A DNA stretch of 64,000 nucleotides from positions 62,001-126,000 of the forward strand of contig JAEUMD010000011.1 in assembly GCA_016793635.1 (NCBI GenBank), in the 5' to 3' direction. Shown here one piece after another: positions 23,432 through 34,636 of this stretch. A program made the position numbers and the translations under genes. Source of the stretch: Hyphomicrobiaceae bacterium. Lineage in GTDB: Bacteria > Pseudomonadota > Alphaproteobacteria > Rhizobiales > Hyphomicrobiaceae. The notes under the pieces were generated by a model, which searched no databases, had not been told where the DNA came from, and saw only the letters and a program-made list of their open reading frames with translations. Position 1 is the first letter of the stretch. Every line of letters begins with the position of its first letter.

Positions 23432-24787
23432 TCACTCCAGGCCATAACGTTGCAGTAACCTATAGAGATTGCGCTCGCTGATGCCGAGCGCCGCCGCCAG
23501 ATTGGCGCGATGGCCTGAGAGCTTCGCGTGCAGCATCTCGACGTAGGTGCGGCGTACTTCCTCCATCGTCGGGACGTGGTCGAAGTTCAGCTTGATGTCG
23601 CTCGACGCGCCGCCAGCGTCGGCGGGCAGTCCGAAGTGGCGTTGATGGATCGTGCTGTCGCCACCCGAAAGGATGATGGCCCGCTCCATGACGTTGCGCA
23701 GCTCGCGCACGTTGCCCGGCCAGTCATACGCGACGAGCGTGCGCTCCGCCGTTCGCGAGAGGTCCTTGCGAATGCGCCGCGAAAAGTCGTGCTTCTCGAG
23801 AAAATGGCGGGCGAGAATGGGAATGTCGTTGCGTCGCTCGCGCAGCGGCGGCAGGCGGATGACGAACGCGCTCAAGCGGTAATAGAGATCGGCGCGGAAG
23901 CGGCCCTCGCGCGCCATCTGCGCGAGATCGCGGTTGGTTGCTGCGACGATGCGGGCATCGGAGGTGAGATCCTTGGTACCGCCGACGCGCCGGAAGGAGC
24001 GTGTCTCGATCAGTCGCAACAGTTTGGCTTGAGCCGATGGGCTGATCTCGCCGATTTCGTCGAGAAAGAGAGTGCCCCCGTCCGCGGCCTCGATCAGGCC
24101 ACGCTTCTGCGCCACCGCACCGGTGAACGACCCCTTCTCATGTCCGAACAGCTCGGATTCGAACAGGTTCTCCTGCAGCGTGCAGCAATCGAGAACGACG
24201 TAGTTGCGTTCGGCACGCGGGCTGCGTTCGTGGATCTCGCGGGCCGCGAGTTCCTTACCGACGCCGCTTTCACCTTCGAGCAACACCGTTGCCGGCGACT
24301 GCGCCACTGCTCCGATCAACCCTTCGAGCTCGCGAAGCGCCGGACTGTCGCCGACCAGAAGGCTCTGGCGCGTCGCCCGCTCGCGCCCGCGCACGAACTC
24401 GTAGTCACGCTTGATCGCCGCGTTCTCGATGGCGCGCGCCACTTCGAGTTCGAGCTCATCGAGGTTCACCGGCTTCGATAGATAGCCGACTGCTCCCTTT
24501 CGCACCGCCTGTACCGCGTTCTGAATCGAGGCGTAAGCCGTCAGTACGATGACGGGGTGCTCGGAGGCGATCTCATCCATCACGTCGAGACCGTTTGCAT
24601 CGGGTAGACGCATGTCGAGGATGACGAGGTCTGGCTCGAAGCTCGTGAGGGCGGCCTGCACGTCTCTCCAACACTTGGCGCTCATGACGCGGTAGCCGAG
24701 GTCCTCGAGCTGACGCGAGATGAGCTGGCGCAGCACGGCGTCGTCCTCGACGACGAGCAACGATTTCTTCTTGCGGTCGATATTCAT
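23432..24787 (-). CDS. NtrC-family sigma-54-dependent response regulator
   Basis: A 451-residue activator. The receiver domain (about 1-125) has acidic EDD and phosphoacceptor Asp58. The AAA+ domain (about 145-385) has Walker A GESGVGKE, the sigma-54-contacting loop GSFTGA, Walker B TLFLDEIGE and an arginine-finger region FRADLYYRLSAF. The C-terminal Fis-type helix-turn-helix ends LAAALGISERNLYRLLQRYGLE. It overlaps the kinase gene by four bases, so it is that kinase's partner. It is the last gene of the minus-strand molybdoenzyme locus. The sigma-54 promoter and twin dyads near 34.6-34.8 kb are the obvious targets (inference). Confidence 0.95.
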   Translation of the reverse strand: MNIDRKKKSLLVVEDDAVLRQLISRQLEDLGYRVMSAKCWRDVQAALTSFEPDLVILDMRLPDANGLDVMDEIASEHPVIVLTAYASIQNAVQAVRKGAVGYLSKPVNLDELELEVARAIENAAIKRDYEFVRGRERATRQSLLVGDSPALRELEGLIGAVAQSPATVLLEGESGVGKELAAREIHERSPRAERNYVVLDCCTLQENLFESELFGHEKGSFTGAVAQKRGLIEAADGGTLFLDEIGEISPSAQAKLLRLIETRSFRRVGGTKDLTSDARIVAATNRDLAQMAREGRFRADLYYRLSAFVIRLPPLRERRNDIPILARHFLEKHDFSRRIRKDLSRTAERTLVAYDWPGNVRELRNVMERAIILSGGDSTIHQRHFGLPADAGGASSDIKLNFDHVPTMEEVRRTYVEMLHAKLSGHRANLAAALGISERNLYRLLQRYGLE

Positions 24788-26739
24788 GCGCTCGTCTCGT
24801 TCGCTTCGCCTGCGTCGGCGCGCGGGAATGAGATGGTGAAGGTGGCGCCGGCGCCGAGCGTGCTGATTGCCGAGATGGTGCCTTGATAGCGGTTGACAAT
24901 CGAGCGGCTGATGGTGAGCCCGAGCCCAGTACCGTGAATGCCGTCCGCCCGCCGGGAATAGAACGGATTGAAGATCTGCGCCAGGGCCTCGGGGGAGATG
25001 CCGACACCGGTATCGGCAAAGGTGACGACGACGTTGTCTCCCTCATGGCGGCCGGTGATTGCGAGCGTGCCACCGCCGGGCATCGCGTGGAAGGCGTTCT
25101 GCGTCAGGTTGAGAACCAGCATGCGAAGCTCCTGGTCCGTGGCCAGCACACGCAGCTCCTCTCCTCCCAGGTTCACATCGAGCGTCACGCCGCGGTGTTC
25201 GGCCTCGAACCTCAACAGTGACACCACATCCGGCACGATGTTGGAGAAGGAGACGAGTTGCAGGTTGTTGCTCGGTGTCTGGCTGAGATCGAGCAGACGC
25301 TTGGTTACGCGGATGCAGTTGTCCACCTCGCCGTCCACCATGCCCAGATAGTCGCGTGCTTCTCGTTCTGCCGGCACGTTGCCGCTACCAAGCCGCCGCA
25401 GCACGGCCTGGAGACCGAGTCGGATCGACGCCAGTGGGTTGTATATCTCGTGCGCGACGCCCGCCGCGAGCTGACCGATCTCCGACAAGCGCTGCTCATG
25501 ACTGAAGCGCACCTGTTGTTCGAGATCGCGAATGGCCTCGATGATATAGCTCTGAGGAATCCCCTCTTGCGTTATGGTGAGACGTGCGGCCGTCGTCTCA
25601 ACGTGCACGTCGGTGCCGTCGCTGCGGACGTGACGATGAATATAGCGGATGGGTTCGCCATCCGACTTGATGGCGTGGAACGGGCAAGTAACCAGAGTTG
25701 GTGCGCAGGGCTCGCGTAAGCCGTGCGCGTGATAGCACGGCTCGCCGATGACACTGCCCCGCGGCGCCAACACCTGCCGCGCATAGGACTCGTTCGCCAT
25801 CACGATCCGATGGCTCTGGTCGATCACCCGAACGCCGTCTGGAACGGTGTCGAGCAGCGCCTTGAGAAAGGTTTCCTTCTCCTGGACTTCGCGTAATCCC
25901 TGTTCGATCCGCTCGGCCATTCCATTGAAGCTCTCGCACAACCCTTCGATCTCGTCGCCACCGCCTTTGCGCTCGATCTTGACCCGTGAACCGAGGTCGC
26001 CTGCGGCAAGTGAGCGGCTGGCGCGATCGAGCACGAAGATCGGCTCTAGCACCTGGCGTTTGAGCAAGAGCCAGACGGAGAGCAGCCCGGCGAGCATGAC
26101 GAGCAGGCCGGCACCGCTCATTGCAGCAGCGGCGTGCAAGGCATCCGATTTCAAGCCAGCCGCATCCTGGTCGACCACGAGGATGCCGTTGACCGGGTTC
26201 ACAGCCGCCGGTCCGTGGCAGGCGAGACAAGCCTCTCGGTTCGAAATCGGGTTGACGCTGCGGAGCACGTCGCGGCCGTCGGCGAGGCGCATCATCCGGT
26301 TCGATGGGGAGAGCACGTGCGTATCGCCCTCCCGACACGTCTCGCAACCGAGATCGGCGCGGCTGAGCTGGCTGTCGAGGGCGCTCGCATCGCTCGCGAA
26401 ACGCACGACGCCCGCTGGGTTGACGATGCGCACGCTGGCAATGCCGGGCTGCTTGCCCAGGCGGCTCACGATGTCCTGCAAGCCGGGCAGATCGCGTTTC
26501 AACATCGCGTTCTCGAGGCTCACCTGGAGCAGCCGGCTCACCTGGTCGGAGGCATTGCCGCGCTCGAGCGCGAGACGGCTGCGATAGATCTCGATGAACA
26601 GAACAAGGAACACCAACGACGCCAGGGTAATTCCGGCGGCGAGGCTCATCAGAAATTTTCGACCGAGGGAGCCGCGCGTTGTCACGCCTGACCTCCGAAC
26701 CCGGCGGCCATGCCGCTCCAGCATCCGCTTTTGCGGCAC
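24784..26739 (-). CDS. Histidine kinase with periplasmic heme-c motif
   Basis: A 651-residue sensor. TM1 (about 30-52) and TM2 (about 203-227) bracket a periplasmic domain holding CETC (132-135) and the heme-c motif CLACH (171-175). Then follow HAMP (about 225-280), a PAS domain with extra Cys (CYHAHGLREPC...TCPFHA, about 290-400), HisKA with phosphoacceptor His430 in GVAHEIYNPLAS, and an HATPase domain with DTGVGI and GTGLGL. Covalent heme would let it sense periplasmic redox state, oxygen or a small ligand. It is coupled to the following regulator by a four-base overlap and lies 15 bases from the ferredoxin gene. Confidence 0.93.
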   Translation of the reverse strand: MPQKRMLERHGRRVRRSGVTTRGSLGRKFLMSLAAGITLASLVFLVLFIEIYRSRLALERGNASDQVSRLLQVSLENAMLKRDLPGLQDIVSRLGKQPGIASVRIVNPAGVVRFASDASALDSQLSRADLGCETCREGDTHVLSPSNRMMRLADGRDVLRSVNPISNREACLACHGPAAVNPVNGILVVDQDAAGLKSDALHAAAAMSGAGLLVMLAGLLSVWLLLKRQVLEPIFVLDRASRSLAAGDLGSRVKIERKGGGDEIEGLCESFNGMAERIEQGLREVQEKETFLKALLDTVPDGVRVIDQSHRIVMANESYARQVLAPRGSVIGEPCYHAHGLREPCAPTLVTCPFHAIKSDGEPIRYIHRHVRSDGTDVHVETTAARLTITQEGIPQSYIIEAIRDLEQQVRFSHEQRLSEIGQLAAGVAHEIYNPLASIRLGLQAVLRRLGSGNVPAEREARDYLGMVDGEVDNCIRVTKRLLDLSQTPSNNLQLVSFSNIVPDVVSLLRFEAEHRGVTLDVNLGGEELRVLATDQELRMLVLNLTQNAFHAMPGGGTLAITGRHEGDNVVVTFADTGVGISPEALAQIFNPFYSRRADGIHGTGLGLTISRSIVNRYQGTISAISTLGAGATFTISFPRADAGEANETSA

Positions 26740-26754
26740 CGACGACCGGCGATC

Positions 26755-34205: not shown

Positions 34206-34583
34206 TCAGCGCGCGCGGCTGGCGCGACGCGATGTCGGGGGGTAGAGCGCGCGGATGTCGTAGGGCGGAGGCATGTTCCGCCGCGTGAAGGGGGTGAACC
34301 ACGCGCCCTGATCGTCGACGAAGCGGAGGCTCGACGGGATCGGCTTGCTCACACCGCGCAGCGCAGCCGCCCGCCAATCCGCGTCGTGGTCGAGCGTTTG
34401 AATACGGGGCGCCCGATCCGGGCGCCGGTCTGGCTTCGTGCCGGCGATGAACTGATCTGTCGGCTCCTGTGCGCCCGCTATCGTAACGTCAATCGAGGCC
34501 ACAGCCGCCAAGCTGAGAAGCAGCGCGATGCCCCCTCGCGCCACACCGCGCATTTCGAAGGTCCAGGACATTTCCATCGCCAT
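34206..34583 (-). CDS. Small secreted protein, first gene of the sigma-54 locus
   Basis: A 125-residue protein with an N-terminal signal (about residues 12-38, ending IAGAQEP) and a mature part rich in Arg and Pro (KPDRRPDRAPRIQTLDHDADW, RRNMPPPYDIRALYPP). It matches no family I know. Starts at 34583, 34577 and 34571 are all in frame; AGGG is best spaced for 34577. The predicted transcription start is about 26 bases upstream of the first ATG. As the first gene after the promoter it is likely specific to this system. Confidence 0.65.
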   Translation of the reverse strand: MAMEMSWTFEMRGVARGGIALLLSLAAVASIDVTIAGAQEPTDQFIAGTKPDRRPDRAPRIQTLDHDADWRAAALRGVSKPIPSSLRFVDDQGAWFTPFTRRNMPPPYDIRALYPPTSRRASRAR

Positions 34584-34619
34584 CCACCCTGCCTTGCCAA
34601 ATGCTTTTGGTTAAGGAAG

Positions 34620-34636
34620 AGCAAGGCCCATGCCAA
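34620..34636 (-). promoter_or_regulatory. Sigma-54 (-24/-12) promoter
   Basis: Read on the minus strand, TTGGCATGGGCCTTGCT matches the consensus YTGGCACGRNNNTTGCW with a single difference, and has the required GG-N10-GC. Transcription should start near 34609, just before the first gene of the locus. It fits the NtrC-type activator encoded in the same locus. Confidence 0.85.

Follow-up and report, generated by a model that had tools for sequence, protein, structure and literature searches.

A proteobacterial operon that joins a DmsAB-like molybdoenzyme to methionine-array proteins: a candidate periplasmic methionine-sulfoxide cycle

The stretch of DNA analysed here, 64 kb from contig JAEUMD010000011.1 of a Hyphomicrobiaceae bacterium (hereafter the window), carries at 23432..34636 a set of ten genes in which a DmsAB-like molybdoenzyme, a pentaheme cytochrome and methionine-rich secreted proteins are found together with a two-component system and a sigma-54 promoter. 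A first-pass annotation had placed all ten, from the regulator to the first secreted protein, on one strand, and this was confirmed for the minus strand by an open reading frame (ORF) check and, where a family is known, by Pfam and NCBIfam matches. Its domain calls for the kinase, the NtrC-type activator, the chaperone, the DmsAB-like enzyme, the pentaheme cytochrome and the methionine-rich proteins were borne out by profiles and motif counts. In the direction of transcription, the order is small secreted protein, methionine-array secreted protein, pentaheme cytochrome, methionine-array lipoprotein, DmsA-like subunit, DmsB-like subunit, TorD-type chaperone, polyferredoxin, kinase and NtrC-type activator. 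Two gene pairs overlap by 4 bases and the remaining gaps measure 15-156 bases, while the large flanking genes, an aldehyde dehydrogenase at 21425-22945 (+) and an M1 peptidase at 35062-37749 (+), point the opposite way. The features are as follows.

34806-34794, minus strand: distal palindrome TGCCAATTTGTCA, 67 bp from the proximal palindrome; presumed activator site
34739-34727, minus strand: proximal palindrome TGTCAAATTGGCA; presumed activator site
34635-34620, minus strand: sigma-54 promoter TGGCATGGGCCTTGCT, a -24/-12 match scoring 16.2 of 16.2
34206..34583, minus strand: small secreted protein of no known family, with the motif IAG..P..RP..AP...PYP.SL.FL.DQG.W.TPF..PGM.GPYDIR.WH
33703..34107, minus strand: methionine-array secreted protein, 30 Met in 134 residues; signal sequence by eye
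33547..33702, minus strand: predicted strong hairpin in the gap between the methionine-array gene and the cytochrome gene (minimum free energy -77.1 kcal/mol, z -4.9)
32557..33546, minus strand: pentaheme c-type cytochrome, five CxxCH motifs and an N-terminal hydrophobic helix
32049..32504, minus strand: methionine-array lipoprotein of (M-x-G) units, 31 Met in 151 residues; lipobox VAGC by eye
29356..31938, minus strand: DmsA-like molybdopterin catalytic subunit (PF00384, PF01568); Tat-type N-terminus RRDFLRT by eye
28657..29337, minus strand: DmsB-like iron-sulfur subunit (PF13247; TIGR02951 at 194.2 bits, cut-off 214.1)
27872..28660, minus strand: TorD/DmsD-type chaperone (PF02613; NCBIfam TorD at 60.6 bits, below the cut-off of 132)
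26755..27840, minus strand: polyferredoxin with 4Fe-4S motifs (Pfam Fer4 families); no signal peptide by eye
24784..26739, minus strand: membrane histidine kinase with one periplasmic heme-c motif (CLACH) and HAMP, PAS, HisKA and HATPase domains (Pfam)
23432..24787, minus strand: NtrC-type sigma-54 activator with receiver, AAA+ domain bearing GSFTGA, and helix-turn-helix (PF00072, PF00158); orthologues in 48 of the 80 related loci described below, many of the others being cut short

The best 80 of 343 relatives of the catalytic subunit found in a scan of species genomes (catalytic subunit 77-98% identical) were taken as the set of related loci; many of them (Thiodiazotropha and its kin) are closely related to one another, and counts over loci are not counts of independent events. 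Loci L001-L007, which have short flanks and are mostly duplicates, were left out of the cluster tables. By record titles, the hosts are alpha-, beta- and gammaproteobacteria, with many symbionts that oxidise sulfur (Thiodiazotropha, Sedimenticola), Rhodobacterales and Hyphomicrobiales, and the titles naming Clostridia, Exiguobacterium and Desulfobulbus are probably mis-binned metagenome-assembled genomes (MAGs). Among 398 sampled genomes of the phylum, the enzyme was found at 77% identity or more in 5, the window's own included, and the next matches reach at most 41%, a drop that marks a sharply bounded clade.

The gene set is largely constant. The iron-sulfur subunit gene is present in 80/80 loci, the cytochrome gene in 79/80 (the sole exception, L008, has its contig cut at the gene), the chaperone gene in 78/80, and the small-protein gene in all 37 loci with at least 2.9 kb of upstream DNA. 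The commonest order is small protein, one methionine array, cytochrome, A, B and chaperone; an extra array gene between the cytochrome and A genes was seen in the window and in L074. That the ten genes form one system, as had been proposed from order, overlaps and promoter, is supported by this comparative linkage for most parts and has to be loosened for others. The polyferredoxin gene was found in 57/80 loci, several contigs ending early, and is not universal. The kinase/activator pair is found in 23 of the 26 loci of sufficient length (L027, L068 and L086 lack it), and because it lies upstream and divergent in many gammaproteobacterial loci it is better regarded as a partner than as an always co-transcribed part. 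The co-occurrence of the methionine-rich genes with the DmsA-like gene, which the first-pass annotation had singled out for checking, extends to nearly every locus long enough to judge: of the 41 loci with at least 2.5 kb of upstream DNA, 40 have arrays of 12 or more M-x-G units ahead of the enzyme gene. Loci that keep the enzyme and never the methionine-rich genes or the regulatory pair were thus not seen as a pattern.

Amongst the shorter loci, 28 of 39 also have arrays of at least 12 units; at 28 of the 80 loci the contig ends within an array (at least 8 units), as expected from assembly breaks at repeats, and arrays are present in all eight members with whole-genome flanks (L156-L163, which overlap in part with the 80 loci). 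Read on the other strand, this upstream DNA holds at most 4 units (none of the 80 loci reaches 8), and the maximum in 73 stretches downstream is 5. A control scan of about 4 kb on each side of 20 DmsA-type loci (34-41% identical, one with an internal TGA) found no frame of 18% Met over 60 residues at any of them, the highest methionine content being 13%. Within uninterrupted x-x-G runs, the methionine register holds Met in all but 175 of 3205 units, a count with some bias since the runs were selected as at least half Met. Glycine codons other than GGC make up 38%, and all six serine codons are in use; as these codons vary widely and Met is constant, the idea that the array arose by chance or through a recent expansion of repeated DNA was rejected. 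At the level of sequence, methionine is the constrained feature of the arrays. Genome G613 (L185:2435-4412, reverse complement) carries a pair of arrays ahead of its small-protein gene, with Y, P, R, Q or G as the usual middle residue, and because this residue is almost wholly changed there, Met and Gly can be regarded as the conserved part of the repeat. His is scarce or absent in the array proteins and Cys mostly scarce, and for the two in the window Pfam lists only Collagen.

The arrays and the enzyme also occur together at the genome level. Of 60 relatives, 7 carry the enzyme, and arrays containing Ser were found in all 7 and in one of the 53 others, G016, where a small-protein gene is accompanied by an array cut by the contig end and no enzyme match appears at the threshold used. 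In the 398-genome sample, a pattern requiring at least two non-Gly middle residues leaves the 5 enzyme genomes together with G423 and G253, whose matches are multicopper oxidases; amongst 289 genomes of the class, 3 carry the enzyme and a stricter pattern finds 2 of these plus 2 others, again multicopper oxidases, while missing the third, G613, whose arrays have other middle residues. A first, broad array pattern matched in 78/398 genomes and was of little use as a marker of the system, as it also matches MGG-only runs, which we take to be GroEL tails. The multicopper oxidases (L167, L168, L186, L187) have internal MSGM/MTGM/MAGM tracts and constitute the nearest unrelated use of the repeat; at L168, L186 and L187 they are adjoined by two-component genes weakly similar to the operon's pair. 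In G232, where the operon array gives 49 matches, 9 further matches lie on the opposite strand and are possibly a second array gene.

The catalytic subunit is related to, and distinct from, DmsA. It scores 613.5 bits against the DmsA model TIGR02166, below the cut-off of 777.7; its N-terminus scores 21.0 bits against PF10518, just below 22.7; DMSO (dimethyl sulfoxide) reductases in the PDB match it at 225-244 bits, and the DmsA-type genes of the phylum sample are 30-41% identical to the clade enzyme. On comparison of 81 clade and 25 DmsA-type sequences, serine occupies the molybdenum-ligand position (Ser217) in 81/81 and 24/25 respectively, with a gap in the remaining one; it aligns with Ser147 of the Rhodobacter sphaeroides DMSO reductase, which we take to be a molybdenum ligand. 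Position 77, presumably a ligand of the FS0 cluster, is His in 81/81 clade members whereas it is Cys in 24/25 DmsA-type sequences (a gap in the other), and position 71 is also His throughout the clade. As far as the aligned residues go, this Cys-to-His change in the FS0 motif is diagnostic of the clade; His77 may ligate the cluster and shift its potential.

Five or six CxxCH motifs are found in 78 of the 79 cytochrome orthologues. All 48 kinase orthologues carry a CxxCH heme-c motif, so that the kinase, which had been called heme-sensing, is better described as heme-bearing; its listed Pfam matches include no metal-sensor domain. The small secreted protein has no family in Pfam or NCBIfam. Its predicted structure is poor (predicted local distance difference test, pLDDT, 69.5; predicted template modelling score, pTM, 0.33), and so is that of the cytochrome (pLDDT 52.8, pTM 0.34).

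Upstream of the operon, TGGCATGGGCCTTGCT is the only TGGCAYGN4TTGCW match in the 64-kb window, and the two palindromes are the only close pair among the TGNCANWWTGNCA matches in the 3.82-Mb genome; the activator may therefore serve the operon promoter alone. These elements were followed in 42 regions upstream of small-protein genes, after exclusion of those with fewer than 300 bases, without the anchor motif, or with their last 200 bases identical to another. In 29 of them a weighted -24/-12 match scores 14.7 or more out of 16.2, where dinucleotide shuffles expect 0.9. At least one palindrome TGNCANNNTGNCA is present in 28 (shuffle mean 0.67) and none in 14; at least two are present in 20 (0 in 100 shuffle sets), and in 14 of these 20 the pair is 61-67 bp apart. 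The matching promoter and enhancers claimed from the window alone hence recur far above chance, with the qualification that in seven loci the palindromes are kept and the sigma-54 site is not.

In these seven loci (L016, L018, L023, L024, L037, L066 and L083, mostly Rhodobacterales by title) the activator lacks GAFTGA, the sigma-54 score is below 14.0 in every case and at least two palindromes are retained in every case. All 24 loci with the loop score at least 14.0 (Fisher p 4e-7 against the seven), although this threshold was chosen after the scores had been seen and the margin is narrow, L010 and L082 (loop) standing at 14.0 and L083 (no loop) at 13.9; at 14.7 the counts are 21/24 and 0/7 (p 5e-5). 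L064, with GAFTDA, was counted as loop-bearing. As the threshold is post hoc and the loci are related, both p-values overstate the case. In Rhodobacter xanthinilyticus, too, the activator is without the loop, and a pair of palindromes is found with a spacing of 63 bp. A precedent is the NtrC of R. capsulatus, which lacks GAFTGA and works with sigma-70, and the present loci offer a clean case of an NtrC-type activator that has no GAFTGA, with the sigma-54 promoter gone and the operators retained.

Folding of intergenic gaps of 30-300 bases showed that the gap between the array and cytochrome genes has z below -2 against shuffles in 35 of 54 cases, the window included (median -2.5), and less often elsewhere: in 9/30 gaps between the small-protein and array genes and in 3/15 between the cytochrome and enzyme genes. 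A hairpin after the array gene would suit a higher output of array protein than of enzyme.

Considering these observations together, we propose that the operon encodes a self-contained periplasmic methionine-sulfoxide (MetO) cycle, in which a methionine-array oxidant sink is re-reduced by the molybdoenzyme; this is the explanation we prefer, and it could equally well prove wrong. The heme-bearing kinase would respond to a redox-active signal and phosphorylate the NtrC-type activator, which would bind the two palindromes, spaced by about six turns of the helix, and fire the single sigma-54 promoter. The first products would be the small secreted protein and the secreted or lipid-anchored (Met-x-Gly)n proteins, whose exposed methionines would soak up periplasmic oxidants. 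The exported DmsAB-like enzyme would then reduce the methionine sulfoxide in the arrays, with electrons reaching it via the membrane-anchored pentaheme cytochrome. The parts, their order and conservation, the recurrent promoter and palindromes and the constraint on methionine are read from the sequences themselves. What we infer is the nature of the oxidant, that the arrays are the substrate, where the electrons come from and in which direction they flow, that the activator binds the palindromes, and the roles of the small protein and of the polyferredoxin (maturation or electron transfer).

Several lines of evidence argue for this cycle. Arrays accompany the enzyme in nearly all loci of adequate length and in every whole-genome member, and are found beside none of the ordinary DmsA-type loci; arrays and enzyme co-occur across the 60 relatives; methionine is constrained, and the serine of S- and N-oxide reductases stands at the molybdenum-ligand position. 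There are also precedents. In the available text, DorA is reported to reduce protein-bound MetO, at a rate about 3-fold higher on a GAGM peptide than on a GYM peptide (PMC7402097), and E. coli DmsABC to reduce MetO, with dmsA induced by hypochlorite (PMC12096835). The design of MrpX/MsrPQ, discussed below, points the same way.

Other observations weigh against it. The endosymbiont locus L076, the array-less exception amongst the 41, has retained the promoter and the genes for the enzyme, the cytochrome and the small protein. With their Met-x-x-Met spacing the arrays are also suited to Cu(I), the array matches with at least two non-Gly middle residues in the four enzyme-less genomes of the phylum and class samples are all multicopper oxidases, and the second array match of G016 is a protein of the LTXXQ family, which we take to include metal- and envelope-stress members. 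A simple twin-arginine pattern is found in only 63/81 N-termini, with start codons unrefined. The weakest links would be the electron source and the kinase signal. No quinol-oxidising subunit is evident in the operon, the ten window proteins having no DmsC- or NapC-type match among the Pfam and NCBIfam matches listed; among clusters present in at least 5 of the 80 loci no DmsC was identified, two such clusters having no Pfam match. Finally, amongst the 60 relatives MsrP is over the cut-off in 2/7 genomes with the enzyme and in 27/53 without it. The idea that the system has replaced MsrP is unsupported by these counts; in the window's family MsrP is over the cut-off in 0/5 enzyme genomes, which is suggestive only.

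Amongst the rival explanations, the one that survives best, though we consider it unlikely, holds that the enzyme is an ordinary respiratory reductase of S- or N-oxides or oxyanions under a new regulator, the arrays being structural or protective, for example shielding the enzyme or the cytochrome, and not its substrate. DmsA-type enzymes are described as reducing DMSO, iodate and bromate in the portions of the literature consulted, members of the clade occur by title in MAGs of sulfur oxidisers and sediments, and L076 retains the enzyme without an array. This explanation does not sit well with an array that is present in 40/41 loci and constrained in its methionines, when no such gene lies beside any of the 20 ordinary DmsA-type loci.

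Less probable again is copper (or silver) handling, in which the Met-x-x-Met arrays would bind periplasmic Cu(I) and the redox enzymes would react to metal stress or help against it. MxxM counts as a Cu(I) motif. Multicopper oxidases share this short motif, and Pfam confirms such an oxidase as the source of the array match in each of the four enzyme-less genomes whose match has at least two non-Gly middle residues; copper binding therefore stays a serious rival. In E. coli, many of the genes for molybdenum enzymes are induced by stressors, copper among them, according to the text seen of PMC12096835. Nevertheless, the scarcity of His and Cys in the arrays argues against it. Furthermore, unlike in copper-resistance systems, no multicopper oxidase, copper pump or copper sensor is found among the clusters present in at least 5 of the 80 loci; the clusters near the operon (c9-c12) are a thioredoxin/NHL protein, a cytochrome c and two that match no Pfam family. 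The sensor, with its heme-c motif, also has no metal-sensor domain among the matches listed.

A doubtful variant, to which we give lower standing still, regards the arrays as a periplasmic redox capacitor, in which methionines would be oxidised whenever oxidants are present and the sulfoxide so stored would later act, still bound in protein, as a terminal electron acceptor that the molybdoenzyme reduces when oxygen is low; if true, this would be a respiratory enzyme with its own genetically encoded, polymeric electron acceptor. That the enzyme runs oxidatively, as a thioether or sulfur-compound dehydrogenase passing electrons via the cytochrome to respiration, is very improbable, since, for all that the operon has a cytochrome partner and no quinone-reactive membrane subunit and many hosts are sulfur oxidisers by name, the best-scoring characterised families are reductases, the ligand-position serine is that of S- and N-oxide reductases, and the arrays are left unexplained.

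Returning to the methionine-sulfoxide cycle, its logic, a methionine-rich sink with a molybdenum reductase, is already known; the parts are different here. In the accessible portions of the respective papers, MrpX/YedYZ of Azospira and BcrXQP of Brucella pair a methionine-rich sink with MsrP (PMC4623255, PMC8315932), and C3566-C3568 of uropathogenic E. coli place such a sink and MsrP parts under a two-component system (PMC8550376). The shared design, so far as those portions describe it, is a periplasmic methionine-rich sink whose gene stands with those for a molybdenum MetO reductase and for a stress regulator of its own, the window having two methionine-rich proteins. On the same descriptions, their MXKDX repeats (stated for Brucella) are replaced here by M-x-G repeats, their sulfite-oxidase-family MsrP and membrane MsrQ by a DMSO-reductase-family enzyme (PF00384/PF01568) and a pentaheme cytochrome, and their extracytoplasmic function (ECF) sigma factor or other two-component pair by a heme-bearing kinase and a sigma-54 activator. 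None of the ten window proteins has an MsrP or MsrQ match among the Pfam and NCBIfam matches listed. Apparently, then, no part is homologous to MrpX/MsrPQ, the two being set apart by descriptions and not by direct sequence comparison, and the operon would be a second, non-homologous solution to the job proposed for MrpX/MsrPQ.

Other known systems share single parts. DmsABC and YnfEFGH have catalytic and iron-sulfur subunits and a TorD/DmsD chaperone of the same superfamilies, with Ser at the molybdenum-ligand position, whereas the proteins here fall below the NCBIfam cut-offs, have no DmsC found with them and carry His for a cluster Cys; the cytochrome partner, the methionine arrays and the heme-kinase/sigma-54 control differ too. 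DorA of R. sphaeroides is not known to have an iron-sulfur subunit or a dedicated methionine-array partner. It resembles the present enzyme as a periplasmic DMSO-reductase-type enzyme that, in the part of PMC7402097 seen, reduces protein MetO. TorCA, in the available text of PMC11727998, likewise has a membrane-anchored pentaheme cytochrome feeding a DMSO-reductase-family enzyme, but the operon cytochrome has no NapC/NirT-type match in Pfam and no convincing PDB relative by sequence. With sigma-54 two-component systems in general, the window shares an AAA+ activator bearing GSFTGA, a -24/-12 promoter and upstream palindromes.

The first-pass annotation knew of no described system with this combination, and no description was found among the matches listed in a literature search of open-access text, which covers neither subscription papers nor bioRxiv; a search with the array repeat strings gave only an unrelated match. 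The gene set seemingly has not been described before. One mSystems paper (PMC11237559) reports dmsAB near soxY in lucinid symbionts, genes that may correspond to the present operon; the word 'methionine' is absent from its main text. If the cycle is real, periplasmic methionine-sulfoxide cycling would have arisen at least twice from different parts, and a molybdoenzyme clade across three proteobacterial classes would have its natural substrate, a protein, encoded by a neighbouring gene. Whether DmsA-type enzymes serve respiration or repair in vivo, a debated matter, would become directly testable, since a synthetic peptide could stand in for the presumed substrate. The system also adds a small family of secreted proteins without a known fold.

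Some further observations concern the surroundings of the operon. About 3 kb past it in the window, at 19195-20382 (-), lies a gene for a CusB/HlyD-type membrane-fusion protein (PF16576), of which there is no cluster in at least 5 related loci. A thioredoxin-like/NHL protein cluster (19 loci; e.g. L038:15999-17600) and a cytochrome c cluster (15 loci; e.g. L046:5435-5827) both recur after the chaperone or polyferredoxin gene, mostly under gammaproteobacterial titles. In L065 and L080 several ORFs (about 2.5-3.5 kb) lie between the A and B genes. A tubeworm symbiont MAG (L022:16769-22124) has, downstream of the first operon, a second cytochrome-A-B set with a 1507-bit catalytic subunit and without an array of its own within the stretch examined. 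Rhodobacter xanthinilyticus LPB0142 carries the system on plasmid pEJ01 (L175, NZ_CP017782.1), where the array and small-protein genes are annotated as 'hypothetical protein'. This plasmid is typed as conjugative, with an IS1247-family transposase some 2.4 kb ahead of the gene for the small protein, which may point to a possible route of the system's spread.

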